A stretch of DNA of 6,025 nucleotides. Source: Pseudomonadota bacterium. GTDB taxonomy: Bacteria; Pseudomonadota; Alphaproteobacteria; Rhizobiales; Hyphomicrobiaceae. Positions 792 to 6,025 of the stretch are shown here, piece by piece. The position numbers and the translations under genes are program-made. Under the pieces are notes generated by a model. It was not told the DNA's origin. It did no database searches and saw only the letters and a program-made list of their open reading frames with translations. The stretch covers positions 1 to 6,025 of the forward strand of contig JAKALI010000273.1 of the NCBI GenBank assembly GCA_021813195.1, in the 5' to 3' direction. How positions within the stretch are numbered: the first letter of the stretch is position 1; each line of letters opens with the position of its first letter.

Positions 792-2006
792 ATGCCCTGC
801 TCTGAACACAGCCAGATCGCCAAACAAGCCGTGCGCCCCGAATGGGCCGCCAGTCGCCGGATCGTGGTCAAAATCGGCTCGGCGCTTCTTGCTGACCGCG
901 CCACGGGGACACTGAAATCGGATTGGCTGGCTGCGCTCATGTCTGACGTGGCCGAGCTTAAGCGTGCCGGCAAGGACGTCATTCTGGTGTCCTCAGGGGC
1001 GATCGCGCTTGGCCGCTACCGGCTCGGATTGCCCAAAGGATCTTTGGAATTGGAGCAGAGCCAAGCCGCCGCCGCCGTGGGTCAGATCAGCCTGGCGGCG
1101 GCCTATCAAAGCCTTGCCGCCCAACACGGCCTCACGGTTGCGCAAATCCTGCTCACGCTGGGCGACACCGAAGAGCGCCGCCGCTATCTGAACGCGCGCC
1201 ATACCATCGAGACGCTGCTGCGTCTGGGGGCCATTCCTGTCGTCAATGAAAACGACACCGTCGCGACAGCTGAGATCCGCTATGGCGACAACGACCGCTT
1301 GTCGGCCCGTGTCGCCTCGATGACATCGGCTGATTGTCTCGTTCTGCTTTCGGATGTCGATGGTCTTTATACGGCGCCGCCGAACAGTCGAGCCGATGCG
1401 CGCCACATTCCACTCGTGACGGCGATCACGCCTGAGATCGAGGCGATGGCCGGGGGCGTCGGGACCGAACTGTCCAAAGGCGGCATGAAGACGAAAATCG
1501 AAGCTGGTCGCATCGCGCTGGGTTCCGGGGCGCACATGGTCATCACGTCCGGTCTTGTCCTCCATCCTCTGCGTGCGATCGAACAAGGCGCGCGGGTGAC
1601 GTGGTTCTTGGCCAAGCAGGATCCGGTCACGGCAAAGAAGCGCTGGATCTCGGGTCAGCTCGAGCCGCGCGGTGTTTTGCATGTGGATGCGGGTGCCGAA
1701 CGCGCGCTACTTTCAGGTAAGAGCCTTCTGCCAGCGGGTGTTGTGCGCATCGAAGGCAACTTCGACCGCGGGGACGCCATCATCATCCGCTCGATGGATG
1801 GACGTGAATTGGGCCGCGGCCTGGCTGCTTATCCCAAAGCGGAAGCTGACCGTATCATGGGCAAGAAGAGTTCCGACATCGAGGCCATCCTTGGGTTCGA
1901 TCGAGGGGCTGAGCTAGTGCATCGCGACGATATGGCAATCACGGTGACAGTGATAGACGAGAACACGGCGGCAATCGGTGCTCCGGGACAGGCAACGACG
2001 TCATGA
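792..2006 (+). CDS. proB: Glutamate 5-kinase (gamma-glutamyl kinase)
   Basis: Cytoplasmic enzyme that phosphorylates L-glutamate with ATP to gamma-glutamyl phosphate, the first step of proline synthesis. With the ATG at 792 it has 404 residues. Seen: an amino-acid-kinase domain with VVKIGSALL (Lys27), SSGAIALG from Ser67, NEND at 152-155 followed by TVATAEI and [14 protein letters not shown], and the [12 protein letters not shown] loop (Lys233, Lys235). After RWISG (about 285) comes a PUA domain with [12 protein letters not shown] and GNFDRGDAI, ending near HRDDM. It is longer than the E. coli enzyme (367 residues), mainly through about 20 extra residues at each end. The start is uncertain: ATG at 714 gives 430 residues but a poor N-terminus, and neither ATG has a good Shine-Dalgarno sequence. 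I prefer 792 because homologues place the kinase motif close to the start. It overlaps proA by four bases. Feedback inhibition by proline is known for the family. Confidence 0.95.
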
Positions 2007-3295
2007 GCGCGCACGTGATGGTAGATTCGGCGGACGATCTGGCCCACGCAATGCTCGCGATTGGCGCCGCTGCGCGCAAGGCGGCACACATACTCGCCGT
2101 TGCATCATCCGATCAGAAGAACACCGCTCTTTTCGCCGCTGCGCGCTGGCTCTACGATGACATGCCACTAATCTTGGAGGCCAATGCCGTAGACGTTGCC
2201 GCCGCCAAGTCCGCAGGGCAGACGTCCGCCTACATCGATCGTTTGATGCTCGATCGCAAACGCGTCAACGCTATCGGCGAGGGACTGGAAGCGATCGCGC
2301 GGCTGCCTGATCCCGTCGGCACGATCCTAGCAGAGTGGACGCGGCCCAATGGTCTGCGCATCTCTCGCGTTCGCGTTCCGATTGGCGTGATCGGCATCAT
2401 CTACGAGAGCCGGCCCAATGTAACGGCGGACGCCGGCGGGCTGTGTCTCAAGGCCGGCAGCGCGGCTATTTTGCGGACCGGCTCGGACTCCCAACGCTCA
2501 GCCGCCGCCATTCACGCCTGTCTCGCAAAGGGCTTGCGGGAAGTTGGCTTGCCGGAGGCAGCCATCCAACTGGTACCTGTGACGGACCGTGCGGCAGTGG
2601 GCCATATGCTGGCAGGTCTCGGTGGTGCCATCGATGTCATTGTTCCGCGCGGCGGCAAGAGCCTCGTCCATCGCGTGCAAACCGAAGCGCGCGTGCCGGT
2701 GTTTGCTCATCTGGAGGGTATCTGCCACACCTACATCGACAAGGCCGCCGATCTGGATATGGCGCGGCGCATCGTGCTCAACGCCAAGATGCGCCGCACG
2801 GGCATATGCGGGGCGACCGAGTGCCTGCTCGTGGATAAATCCGCCCCCCGCGAGGTTCTTCCCGCACTCGTCACGGCATTGATCGATGCCGGCTGCGAGG
2901 TGCGCGGCGACGAGTCTACGCGCGCCGCCGCTGCCCATGTCGTTGCTGCCGCGCCGGACGATTATGGGCGGGAATTTCTCGATGCGATCATCGCGGTCAA
3001 GGTCGTCGATGGCGTCGATGGTGCGATCGCCCACATCGCGCGCTATGGCTCACAGCACACCGATGCAATCATCACGTCCGATCCCGAGGCCGCTGAGCGG
3101 TTCTTGAAGCACGTCGACAGCGCGATCGTGCTCCACAATGCCTCTACACAATTTGCCGATGGGGGCGAATTTGGCTTCGGGGCGGAGATCGGTATCGCGA
3201 CCGGCAAGCTGCACGCGCGGGGCCCCGTCGGCGTGGAACAATTGACCAGCTTCAAATATGTCGTGAGGGGCGACGGCCAGACTCGCCCGGGCTAG
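2003..3295 (+). CDS. proA: Glutamate-5-semialdehyde dehydrogenase (gamma-glutamyl phosphate reductase)
   Basis: Reduces gamma-glutamyl phosphate with NADPH to glutamate-5-semialdehyde, which cyclises and goes on to proline. It acts directly after ProB, and the family is thought to channel the unstable intermediate between the two enzymes. 430 residues, against 417 in E. coli. Seen: aldehyde-dehydrogenase fold with [11 protein letters not shown] (134 onward), [15 protein letters not shown], the VPRGGKSLV loop, [11 protein letters not shown], and the catalytic cysteine Cys269 in [24 protein letters not shown] and [17 protein letters not shown] follow near the C-terminus, and the protein ends in the usual VRGDGQ. 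No key residue is missing. The start ATG shares ATGA with the proB stop, so the two genes are translationally coupled in one operon. In many Rhizobiales obgE precedes proB and nadD follows proA. Neither is seen beside the pair here. Confidence 0.97.
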
Positions 3296-3343
3296 AGCAC
3301 GCGATGTGCCCCACGTGTTTGCGCTGACTTATCCATGACTGTC

Positions 3344-3377
3344 GCGGCGCAACGCCCCGCCGCAAGCCTGTGGCGTT
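3344..3377. terminator. Possible terminator hairpins between convergent proA and rpmJ
   Basis: Two overlapping inverted repeats lie in the 84-base gap between the stops of proA and rpmJ. GCGGCG (3344-3349) pairs with CGCCGC (3358-3363), and AACGCC (3351-3356) pairs with GGCGTT (3372-3377). The two cannot form together. Neither is followed by a T run, so an intrinsic terminator is plausible only from position. Confidence 0.3.
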
Positions 3378-3379
3378 GG

Positions 3380-3505
3380 TCAGCCTTGGCGGGCCTTGAA
3401 GCGGCGCTGCGTCTTGTTGATCACATAAACGCGGCCCTTGCGGCGCACGATGCGGTTGTCGCGATGGCGCGAGCGTAAAGATTTCAAAGAGTTGCGGACT
3501 TTCAT
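3380..3505 (-). CDS. rpmJ: 50S ribosomal protein L36, 41-residue cysteine-free type
   Basis: Smallest protein of the large ribosomal subunit; it binds 23S rRNA. The 41 codons read from the ATG at 3505 to TGA at 3380. Seen: start [18 protein letters not shown], then [18 protein letters not shown] and the end KARQG, all typical of this protein in alphaproteobacteria. About 40% of residues are Lys or Arg. The zinc-binding Cys/Cys/Cys/His set of the 37-38 residue form is absent, so this is the zinc-independent type, which is the normal one in this group. There is no strong Shine-Dalgarno sequence. It is a single gene convergent with proA. It is easily missed because of its length, but the match leaves little doubt. 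Confidence 0.95.
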
Positions 3506-3680
3506 GGCGATGACCGTTCGGTGTTTTTTGGACTCGCTCGCCGCCAGAGATCGATCAAGGCCGCCCTCGAGCGTTCGAGGACCGCGCGCTGGGCAGCGAG
3601 CGTTGGAAAAAGACGCGGGACCCTAGGCGCTCATGGCGCGGCTGTCAACTGATGCGGCCTCAGAGACCGCCCGGTCCGGT

Positions 3681-3697
3681 CCGCGCGCGCCGCGCGG
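3681..3697. repeat. GC-only inverted repeat
   Basis: CCGCGCG (3681-3687) and CGCGCGG (3691-3697) are perfect complements around a CGC loop. It is the first of two hairpins within 90 bases. The role is unknown. Confidence 0.5.
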
Positions 3698-3711
3698 TGA
3701 AGTAGCGGCGC

Positions 3712-3770
3712 CGGAACCCGGCGTCCCTCCTAGCAAAAGCTGACGGACGTGAGGGTAGGACGCCGGTCCG
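3712..3770. repeat. Long imperfect hairpin
   Basis: CCGGCGTCC (3718-3726) pairs perfectly with GGACGCCGG (3758-3766). The stem is extended outward by CGGA (3712-3715) with TCCG (3767-3770) across a two-base bulge. The interior contains a small AGC-AAAA-GCT hairpin. In total 13 pairs form the main stem. No T run follows on either strand, so it is not a classical terminator. It could be part of a structured RNA or a DNA-binding site. Confidence 0.5.
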
Positions 3771-4164
3771 TTTCCTTATCCGTCGGCGTCGCCCGGCTCG
3801 CCATGCGCTGGTGCTTTGGCGTCGTCAGCGCGTTCTGGGCGTTTTCTTCAGCACGAACATGTCGAGCATCGCTTTGGCCGGAAGCGTCGTCAGTTTAGTG
3901 TGCTCGGCTCGTAGATGCGTTGCATCCGAATGATCCAAGCCGCCGCCGCTGGCCGCTCAAGTGTCAAATTTCGGATCCCGTACCGGCGATCCGCGTCCGC
4001 CGTTTGCGCCCTGCCTCTGGCTACCGCAGGATCGAAATGTTCTGCTGTTCCGGAAACCGGCTTTCACGCAGCGTGCCCGTTTCCCTCTCAGACGACGGAG
4101 TTTGCATCAAAACGGGAGCATTCCACGGGGCAAGGTCACGCGACTGCGAAGTCGTCCGTATGCC

Positions 4165-4209
4165 TGGTGGGCACTAGAGGGATCGAACCTCTGACCCCTT
4201 CCATGTCAG
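4165..4209 (-). other. 3' half of tRNA-Val(GAC), probable attachment-site scar (attR type)
   Basis: Read on the minus strand, this is the 3' part of a tRNA. It has a loop CTGACAT with anticodon GAC (4209-4203), the stem half GGAAG (4202-4198) and the variable region GGGTC. The T arm is AGAGG-TTCGATC-CCTCT (4192-4176). The 3' acceptor strand AGTGCCC, discriminator A and encoded CCA (4167-4165) complete it. The opposite anticodon half (minus strand of 4214-4210, CTCCC) pairs at four of five positions. There is no D arm and no 5' acceptor GGGCACT, so it is not a working tRNA. Such 3' halves arise when an element integrates by recombination in the anticodon or T arm: one end keeps a whole tRNA and the other keeps this scar. 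The missing 5' side faces high coordinates, so the element lies there. Recombinase and HTH genes next door agree with this. Confidence 0.85.
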
Positions 4210-4272
4210 GGGAGGCTACTTTTTTCAACTTATTGTTTTTCTTCATGTTTTCTCCGTCCGTTTTTTAGTGTG

Positions 4273-4515
4273 TCAGGATTGTGCCAAAGATTTTGATGAA
4301 CCCATCCTTGTGAACGCCGTTTCCGTGGCTTCCCGCTCGACTTCTTTATGCAACTCGACGGCGCTCGGCTGGGGCAGGCGGCCGAACACGCACACGTAGG
4401 CCGTCTCACGGGAGACCTGGCAGGCAACTGCGATATCCTGAAAGCCGTAGCCCGCGCGGGCCATGGCCTCGGCCTCGGCGAGACGCCGTTGGATGGCTGC
4501 GGGCGTGATCTTCAT
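4273..4515 (-). CDS. Small helix-turn-helix protein coupled to the integrase remnant
   Basis: 80 residues from the ATG at 4515, chosen because AGGAGG lies seven bases upstream and because that ATG overlaps the stop of the preceding frame in ATGA. I do not recognise the family. Seen: a helical N-terminus (KITPAAIQRRLAEAEAMA), then a likely helix-turn-helix in GYGFQDIAVACQVSRETAY (about 24-42), a short FGRLPQPSAVE linker and a charged helix (LHKEVEREATE). It stands between a recombinase remnant and the attachment scar, 63 bases from the scar. Small DNA-binding proteins in this position are often excisionases (recombination directionality factors) or element repressors, and that role is inferred here from position only. 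A longer frame from an upstream start at 4656 exists but runs antisense-like through the integrase remnant and is less likely. Confidence 0.65.
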   Translation of the reverse strand: MKITPAAIQRRLAEAEAMARAGYGFQDIAVACQVSRETAYVCVFGRLPQPSAVELHKEVEREATETAFTRMGSSKSLAQS

Positions 4516-4796
4516 GACGGATCCTCCTTGGTGTTGGGTGTGATATCGATCATCGGGCCGTGATCGAGCACGTTGGTGGCGTGGGTGACGACGTGATCGA
4601 TCCGCGAGTGCTCCAAGTGCCCGTAGTGATCTTGCAGCATGCGCAAGGACGACCATCCCCCGGCGCGCAGCACGTCCAGCGTGATGGCGGCATAGGGCTC
4701 GACGTCAGTCGCGATGCGGGACGCATGGACACGCCAGGGAGGAGGTCTTTGCCGCAACTGTGAATTGCGGATCGCTGGCGTTGCTGAGGACCGTGG
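4512..4796 (-). pseudogene. C-terminal remnant of a probable tyrosine recombinase (integrase)
   Basis: Only the last part of the catalytic domain is left. Seen: LDVLRAGGWSSLRMLQDHYGHLEHSRI, in parts LDVLRAGGW, SSLRMLQ and DHYGHL. This resembles the end of phage-type integrases, in which GGW.S...M....Y.HL carries the nucleophilic tyrosine; here the Tyr codon is at 4625-4623. The upstream Arg and the R-H-x-x-H block are not present, so it cannot be active. The frame continues upstream without a stop into an unrelated IS3 orfA remnant, giving a chimeric frame open from 4919. Its stop overlaps the start of the HTH gene (ATGA). It lies about 300 bases from the tRNA scar, as expected for an element integrase. 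The assignment depends on a short motif, so the family is likely but not certain. Confidence 0.6.
4523..4528 (-). promoter_or_regulatory. Shine-Dalgarno AGGAGG deciding the HTH gene start
   Basis: A perfect AGGAGG on the minus strand with a seven-base spacer to the ATG at 4515. It lies inside the end of the integrase remnant, so ribosomes finishing that frame could restart here. Confidence 0.75.
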
Positions 4797-4950
4797 CTTG
4801 GCGATGCAGTACGCGCCGCGCAGGCCCCGCGTCACGATGCAGATCTTCTCCTCGACTGAGACGTGCCGCCAGGTATCTCGCTGGTTTGCCCAGGCGATCT
4901 GCTCCGCGCTCCGCGGAGCCTACGTGTCGCGTGGTCTCATTGTGTCCCAC
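4797..4950 (-). pseudogene. IS3-family transposase OrfA, truncated and frameshifted
   Basis: N-terminal piece of an OrfA with the block SAEQIAWANQRDTWRHVSVE then EKICIVTRGLRGAYCIA. In the family this usually reads like RDTWRHVSAEEKIRIVLEGLRGE.SIAELC, the start of the helix-turn-helix. The probable original start is GTG at 4950 (GHNETTRHVGSAERG...). That frame is lost at a small repeat, GCGGAGCGCGGAGC, around 4900-4913, beyond which coding continues in another frame. In the second frame a TAG stands at 4922-4920. The sequence ends after about 45 residues, so no functional OrfA is made. Confidence 0.65.
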
Positions 4951-5126: not shown

Positions 5127-5366
5127 TTAGTTCACCGATTGAACCACTTTGCCGGACGGCAGATGGGACGGCATCGGGCCGGGGCTGAGCAAGAAGCCGA
5201 GGAGGGCCCAGATCGCTACGAATATGACCCACCCCCATTCAATCTGACCCGGTTGCGCGCCTCTGATCAACGTTGCGATCGCATGGAGTTGCCGCCAGCA
5301 GGCCCACGCCATGAGACCGAGGATGAGCAAGGCCAGAATGACGAAATTCGGGTCGGTGGGCTTCAT
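5127..5366 (-). CDS. Small two-helix inner-membrane protein, unknown function
   Basis: 79 residues. The ATG at 5366 is chosen because AGGAGG lies exactly six bases upstream; a longer open frame reaching 5549 has a non-membrane, atypical extension and no such site. Seen: a first hydrophobic helix at about 8-24 (FVILALLILGLMAWACW), then RQLHAIATLIRGAQPGQIEW, a loop region with two Arg and one His. A second helix follows at about 44-60 (WGWVIFVAIWALLGFLL), then a polar tail with SPGPMPSHLPSGK. The short N-terminus before helix 1 has one Lys and one Asp, so both ends may face the same side. Size and layout resemble small accessory proteins of conjugation or phage modules, such as holin-like or pilus-assembly helpers, but no motif decides this. 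A second small frame follows immediately and may be its partner. Confidence 0.75.
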   Translation of the reverse strand: MKPTDPNFVILALLILGLMAWACWRQLHAIATLIRGAQPGQIEWGWVIFVAIWALLGFLLSPGPMPSHLPSGKVVQSVN

Positions 5367-5372
5367 GAGGTT

Positions 5373-5378
5373 CCTCCT
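5373..5378 (-). promoter_or_regulatory. Shine-Dalgarno AGGAGG for the two-helix protein
   Basis: A perfect AGGAGG on the minus strand, six bases before the ATG at 5366. It is the best ribosome site in the window and argues that this small gene is, or was, efficiently translated. Confidence 0.8.
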
Positions 5379-5522
5379 CTTTGGCGAACAAAACGTTGAG
5401 ATCATTTCATCGTGGCCGTTCCTCGCGCCAGTTCGGTTCCAGCGCCCTCGGCAGTTGGCCGTAATGCCGGGCCCCACGACGCGCTCGCACATGTGAGCTC
5501 CGTCCAAGTGGCCGGTCCGATT
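5379..5522. other. Gap between the membrane-protein gene and the IS3 element
   Basis: On the minus strand a frame ends at TGA 5409-5407 after an arginine-rich segment (RARRGARHYGQLPRALEPNW then REERPR). It could be the tail of a gene cut off by the IS to the right, but it has no recognisable domain. No promoter for the membrane-protein gene is evident. Confidence 0.3.
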
Positions 5523-5600
5523 TGGCCTGCTCCCCTGATCCGAGGCCACGTTTAAGTATCGAATCCGGCTATTTCCAAGCTCTCGAACGGAGACAAGGAC

Positions 5601-5879
5601 ATGGCACGGAAAGGCAAGTCGACCGAGGAGATCATCCAGGCTTTGCGCGAAGCGGAGGTCCGTCTTGGACAGGGCGAGACGGTGGGGAAGATCTGCTGGG
5701 GCTTCGGTATCTCAGAGCAGACGCACTACAAGTGGCGCTGCGAGTACGGCGGCCTGAAGCTTGGCCAAGCGAAGCGCTTGAAGGAACTCGAACGCGAGAA
5801 CGAACGGCTGAAGAAGGCGGTTTCCGAACTGACCTTAGACAAGCTTATTTTGAAGGAAGCTTTGACGGGAAAATACTAA
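5601..5879 (+). CDS. IS3-family transposase OrfA
   Basis: 92 residues. DNA-binding half of the IS3 transposase: it recognises the terminal repeats, and on its own it tends to act as a regulator of transposition. Seen: a Tnp_1-type helix-turn-helix (STEEIIQALREAEV, then GETVGKICWGFGISEQTHYK and W), the YGGLKL.QAKRLKELE segment, and a leucine-zipper-like helix from about 60 to 88 (RLKELERENERLKKAVSEL, TLDKLILKE). The length is normal for the group. The ATG at 5601 has GGAG at 5589-5592 and AAGG at 5595-5598 upstream. It ends with GGA AAA TAC TAA, where the -1 frame of orfB overlaps. One oddity is a Cys-Trp-Gly stretch (KICWGFGIS) where relatives often have a more polar turn. It belongs to a different IS3 branch from the remnant at 4797. 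Confidence 0.93.
   Translation: MARKGKSTEEIIQALREAEVRLGQGETVGKICWGFGISEQTHYKWRCEYGGLKLGQAKRLKELERENERLKKAVSELTLDKLILKEALTGKY
5867..5873 (+). promoter_or_regulatory. Programmed -1 frameshift site G_GGA_AAA
   Basis: In the orfA frame the codons read ACG GGA AAA TAC TAA. GGGAAAA therefore fits the X_XXY_YYZ slippery heptamer exactly, four bases before the stop codon. Slipping back one base continues into the orfB frame and makes the OrfAB fusion that is the active transposase in this family. A weak hairpin (GCCC 5880-5883 with GGGC 5895-5898) follows and might stimulate slipping. Confidence 0.8.
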
Positions 5880-6025
5880 GCCCTTCCCGGAAGCGGGCGT
5901 GCGTGGATCACGTGCGCTCGCAGCTTCCCGTTTCGGAGCGTCGGGCGTGTTCGGTTGTCGGACAGCCCCGCGCAACGCAGCGTCGAAAGCCTAAGATCCG
6001 TGACGACGAGGCCGCGCTGACCGAA
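5879..6025 (+). CDS. IS3-family transposase OrfB, N-terminal part
   Basis: 49 residues in the -1 frame relative to orfA, open to the window end. Seen: SPSRKRACVDHVRSQLPVSE then RRACSVVGQPRATQRRKPK and IRDDEAALTE. This is the usual start of OrfB in this IS3 branch, an HTH-like segment with the SERRAC..(L/V)GQ.R.TQR pattern, followed in the family by the rve DDE integrase domain, which would lie past base 6025. No independent good start is visible, so it is probably made as OrfAB by frameshifting. It appears intact as far as seen. Confidence 0.85.

Follow-up and report, generated by a model that had tools for sequence, protein, structure and literature searches.

The mechanism by which mobile elements integrate into tRNA genes is textbook knowledge, and the element described here is of a known kind. 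According to the Islander study (PMC4383910), a 3′ fragment is present in 3760 of 3919 islands, and the site is centred on the anticodon in 2083. In the class "A" islands of that study, an intact tRNA is regenerated at one end, a 3′ fragment in the same orientation is found at the other, and the crossover falls in the anticodon loop. This is the arrangement we propose for the stretch of 6025 nucleotides analysed here (hereafter "the window"), in which, as compared with the Islander description, the fragment end is visible alone and the recombinase is a remnant. A second precedent comes from Bradyrhizobium USDA110, where the borders of the symbiosis island are described as carrying a tRNA-Val of 75 bp and a partial one of 45 bp; for S23321, a relative in which the island is absent, the 75-bp copy alone is described (PMC4036050). 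The 45-bp partial gene has the same length as positions 31–75 of the tRNA discussed below, a likeness of description and not of sequence. It concerns the CAC isoacceptor, as opposed to GAC in the window, and the main tRNA-Val symICE element of Bradyrhizobium is given as about 0.5 Mb (PMC4036050, PMC9174649). In the window, none of the genes was recognised as a symbiosis gene. The isoacceptor of the window, tRNA-Val-GAC, is also the reported integration target of the Citromicrobium phage vB_CbaS-RXM (PMC12486242). Here too the likeness is one of description and not of sequence, and the ORFs scanned in the window include no phage structural gene.

Comparable systems were found among relatives, in the genomes G066 and G104 and other genomes of the Hyphomicrobium sulfonivorans family. 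Their elements share the locus and the crossover position with the window, and the remnant in the window has a relative in the G066 recombinase. They differ in that their recombinase lies beside the intact tRNA, whereas the remnant of the window lies at the fragment end. A literature search for tRNA-Val/rpmJ genomic islands and for Hyphomicrobium tRNA islands and integrases returned no account of this locus.

The 3′ half of a tRNA-Val(GAC) gene is located on the minus strand at 4165–4214. Over 4165–4208 the sequence is identical (44/44, E 1.6e-21) to positions 32–75 of the tRNA-Val(GAC) of relatives, and a weaker extension of the match reaches 4214 (48/50 against the loci L112 and L113), with mismatches at tRNA positions 28 and 31. 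The identity thus starts at tRNA position 32, and weakly at 26, which is where a crossover in the anticodon loop would place it. The half gene comprises most of the anticodon loop with GAC, the 3′ strand of the anticodon stem, the variable region, the T arm, the 3′ acceptor strand and CCA. It extends to the 3′ end of the tRNA and lies on the same strand as rpmJ, as does the native gene in relatives. The initial annotation had recognised this half gene on the minus strand with T arm, variable region, CCA and GAC, and the match bears it out. It had also taken the border of an integrated element to be defined within a few bases. This part holds with a correction, as the exact match stops at 4208 and the border falls between 4208 and 4214. 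The border is accordingly fixed to about seven bases, with the chromosome side known. ARAGORN called zero tRNAs in the window, and the three weak matches from an Rfam scan (E ≤ 5) were all below the gathering scores of their families and none was a tRNA; such silence is expected for a half gene. With up to three mismatches, the 44-mer of the half tRNA is shared by 46 of 103 genomes of the H. sulfonivorans family and by 15 of 397 genomes of an order-wide sample, 13 of these 15 also belonging to the family set. Together with the proA identities given below, these occurrences make a Hyphomicrobiaceae-like host likely. Exact 45-mers of the half tRNA gave 0 matches in IMG/VR.

The native state of the locus was established in the same 103 genomes of the H. 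sulfonivorans family, in 99 of which rpmJ was found. In H. sulfonivorans itself, a response-regulator gene is followed by tRNA-Val(GAC) and, 22 nt further on, by rpmJ and then a gene for a TPR-like protein, all of them sharing a strand; we take the response regulator to be CpdR, and the TPR assignment is likewise presumptive. An intact tRNA-Val(GAC) precedes rpmJ on the same strand by no more than 470 nt in 60 of the 99 genomes (gaps of 18–470 nt), which represents the empty site. After removal of eight duplicate loci, ARAGORN found an intact, co-oriented tRNA-Val(GAC) ahead of rpmJ within the fetched stretch of 71 distinct genomes, i.e. these 60 and a further 11 at distances of 761–10341 nt. 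In G052, G065, G067 and G104 the intact tRNA is on the rpmJ contig at 20–52 kb, in G066 it is on another contig, G105 holds a fragment only, and the contig of G086 starts inside the tRNA. In 21 of the 99 genomes the stretch examined ahead of rpmJ, ranging in length from 0 to about 4.2 kb, contains no tRNA; this number includes one genome with no upstream DNA (G012, locus L211). The tRNA is displaced (by more than 500 nt, to another contig, or present as a fragment only) in 17 of 99. Because rpmJ is natively preceded by a co-oriented, intact tRNA-Val(GAC), the half gene in the window has the chromosome on its CCA side and foreign DNA on the other.

The displaced genomes reproduce the break seen in the window. 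Ten of the 17 retain a 3′ half ahead of rpmJ (G066, G104, G105, G064, G055, G057, G052, G070, G054 and G063), and eight of these ten halves are cut at tRNA positions 26–31 (at 26, 30 or 31), those of G054 and G063 starting from 39. The halves of G104 (positions 26–75) and G066 (30–75) are unchanged, and that of G105 (31–75) has two changes. Decayed halves from position 31 (26 in one alignment of G057) were found at −74 to −17 of rpmJ in G064, G055, G057, G052 and G070, shorter decayed ones covering positions 39–75 in G054 and G063, and a further decayed half in G066. The eight decayed halves were equalled by 0 of 200 shuffles; in a repeat of the control on 300 nt, 1 of 200 shuffles did as well as the halves of G054 and G063. 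Several decayed halves, for instance those of G066, G052 and G070, share changes and are thus not independent events. No 3′ half was found in the remaining 7 of the 17 displaced genomes (G053, G058, G069, G011, G018, G065 and G067). Among the undisplaced genomes, the 31 intervals that measure 45 nt or more served as a control, and with a threshold of 1 of 100 shuffles 0 of them held a 3′ half; the other 29 of the 60 intervals are shorter. Two genomes show both ends of an element. In G104, a single contig carries a cpdR-like gene, the intact tRNA, an adjacent 407-aa recombinase of family PF00589, then 43 kb, followed by the 3′ half and rpmJ. In G066, the cpdR-like gene, the intact tRNA and the recombinase are on contig C29, and the 3′ half and rpmJ on C7. 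ARAGORN also called a tRNA-Val on the G104 fragment (loci L115 and L132), and these calls were dropped as a half gene. Among the seven genomes with decayed halves only, a recombinase match between tRNA and rpmJ was obtained for G070 alone, below the cut-off; for G067, five recombinase matches are listed, none on the contig concerned. Taken as a whole, the locus is a natural record of one integration site, with scars that have decayed to differing degrees. In locus L118 of G066, two 3′ halves precede rpmJ (at 12006), an undecayed one at 8667–8712, about 3.3 kb upstream, and a decayed one at −63 to −17. The presence of two halves in one genome implies that successive integrations occur at one site.

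The half gene in the window stands at the native place of the tRNA, is cut as in the relatives, and has recombinase remains on its foreign side. On these grounds we attribute it with high confidence to the distal attachment site of an element that entered tRNA-Val(GAC) through an anticodon-loop crossover, with rpmJ on the chromosomal side. A distal attachment site had been claimed from the sequence of the window alone, and the comparison lends it support through the native synteny (60 of 99 genomes), the 3′ half in 10 of 17 displaced relatives and the whole pattern in G104 and G066. The comparison with relatives that had been suggested placed an intact tRNA natively upstream of rpmJ; a fragment without an insertion, which would speak against a distal site, was encountered in none of the 31 undisplaced intervals. 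Counted against the distal site are the 659-nt spacer between half gene and rpmJ, the proBA neighbour, the recombinase at the opposite end, the confirmation of one IS instead of several, the status of the intact partner tRNA as a prediction, the scarcity of recombinase matches in the genomes with decayed halves, and the seven of 17 displaced genomes that are without a fragment.

In the proposed mechanism, the host would be a Hyphomicrobiaceae-like chromosome with the native order cpdR – tRNA-Val – rpmJ, and the element would integrate site-specifically into its tRNA-Val(GAC). The element would carry a copy of the tRNA 3′ half, and a tyrosine recombinase would join this copy to the chromosomal gene by a crossover within the anticodon loop. 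Next to cpdR the tRNA would be rebuilt with the 3′ half from the element, and the original 3′ half would be displaced to the far end, where it would stay with rpmJ. The intact tRNA-Val and the remaining element should then lie beyond position 6025, and the recombinase remnant presumably once belonged to this element.

That remnant, a C-terminal piece of a tyrosine recombinase (P0001), occupies 4512–4835 on the minus strand and was identified by its similarity to the recombinase of G066. A tblastn search against 229 fetched loci gave a single match at E ≤ 1, namely the recombinase (PF00589) that abuts the intact tRNA-Val of G066 (E 4e-4). The resemblance involves residues 54–83 of the remnant (about 4587–4676), with 13 of 30 residues agreeing in the region of the presumed catalytic tyrosine (a judgement made by eye). 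In a shuffle control, 0 of 100 sequences gave an equally good match to G066, the best reaching 0.004. A relative of the same length, P0002 (71% identity), is found on one contig of 1224 bases; it likewise matched the G066 recombinase in tblastn (5e-4), with three other places at 0.14–0.47. In the protein collection, P0001 retrieved itself and P0002 only, and no full-length relative; P0001 is present on 4 contigs, of which the longest has 6982 bases. Searches of the remnant against Pfam, PHROGs and PDB gave no match, those against plasmids (tblastn) and IMG/VR no relative, and one against 397 genomes of the order, run as a search without a positive control, 0 matches. A profile of the fetched recombinases scored the remnant no higher than shuffles; its motif filter had kept 10 of 20 loci, one of them clearly misplaced, so that little weight attaches to this result. 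The recombinase remnant of the initial annotation is thereby upheld in part: it resembles a recombinase that sits beside tRNA-Val, but the likeness is faint and is matched by no Pfam, PHROGs or PDB entry.

The remnant is located at the 5′ (element) side of the half gene and on the strand of the tRNA. Conversely, the recombinases of G066, G104 and G070 (the latter below the Pfam cut-off) lie past the CCA end of the intact tRNA and are convergent with it. The distal-end recombinase may belong to an element of other polarity, or it may be what remains of a second element. The latter would apply if successive integrations at the same tRNA had produced a nested or tandem array, the remnant being left from another element, which is a special case of the distal-site reading. 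The two 3′ halves before rpmJ in G066, the position of the remnant at the distal end, unlike in relatives, and a spacer longer than in the 60 undisplaced relatives are in line with such an array; a second tRNA remnant, on the other hand, is absent both from the whole window at E 0.05 and from the last 150 nt before rpmJ, and we consider an array rather unlikely. That the native tRNA-Val instead lost its 5′ part through a rearrangement, by IS-mediated deletion or otherwise, with no site-specific integration and a merely coincidental break in the anticodon loop, is very improbable, since the break lies in the same few bases (positions 26–32) as in G066, G104, G105, G064, G055, G057, G052 and G070, chance alone would place a break within these seven of 75 nt about once in ten, and a tyrosine-recombinase remnant is found on the broken side; in its favour are an IS3-family orfA 1.4 kb away, the unusual downstream neighbour of rpmJ, which may reflect a rearranged region, and the fact that the intact partner tRNA-Val of the window element is an inferred one.

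Within the distal-site reading, a more specific version can be put forward tentatively, as a possibility somewhat short of an even chance. The tRNA-Val(GAC)–rpmJ interval would be a site used repeatedly within this bacterial family, with decaying scars, at which elements of different polarity share the anticodon-loop crossover, and the window element would be one with its recombinase and a helix-turn-helix gene at the rpmJ end. The latter gene is an 80-aa ORF on the minus strand (4273–4515) with weak helix-turn-helix similarity below the Pfam cut-offs, the start of which overlaps the recombinase stop codon by ATGA. It has two relatives among predicted proteins, at 94% and 86% identity, and none further: the cluster of P0003 includes a contig of 29.7 kb, and P0004 comes from one 1224-base contig, which may be that of P0002. 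A search of the ORF against plasmids and one of P0003 against IMG/VR gave no match. As a guess, the ORF possibly encodes a small recombination or regulatory protein. Between this ORF and the half gene, on the element side of the crossover, lies an AT-rich stretch (4215–4272); the GC content is 0.485–0.505 in 200-nt windows over 4100–4399, as compared with about 0.6 around it. This stretch is a possible attP arm. Further into the foreign side, a 140-aa ORF with hydrophobic stretches and no family above its cut-off is found on the minus strand at 5127–5549. An IS3-family orfA follows on the plus strand (5601–5879), the remainder of the IS running past the window end. Several IS elements had been claimed for this side, a number not borne out, as this IS is the one confirmed among the ORFs scanned.

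The chromosomal side starts with the spacer (3506–4164), the 659 nt of which compare with 18–470 nt in the 60 undisplaced relatives. Next comes rpmJ for the type B 50S ribosomal protein L36 (3380–3505, minus strand), the gene that natively adjoins tRNA-Val(GAC) downstream in relatives. Beyond it, the window has proBA where relatives have the TPR-like gene. The two genes are plus-strand ORFs: one at 2003–3295 with an Aldedh domain, which we take to be proA (gamma-glutamyl phosphate reductase), and one at 714–2006 with AA_kinase and PUA domains, presumably proB (glutamate 5-kinase). The early statement that the CCA side faces rpmJ and proBA is consistent with these assignments. A motif search placed rpmJ beside proA in 0 of 80 proA loci (the best 80 of at least 586 in the GTDB collection), and no proA match was listed in the rpmJ stretches of relatives, many of which are short. 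IMG/VR yielded one distant locus for the window proA. In the window, rpmJ and proA are convergent neighbours (3295–3380). Among the best 80 of at least 586 GTDB loci, the highest identity to the window proA, 72%, was that of a Hyphomicrobiaceae MAG (L018).
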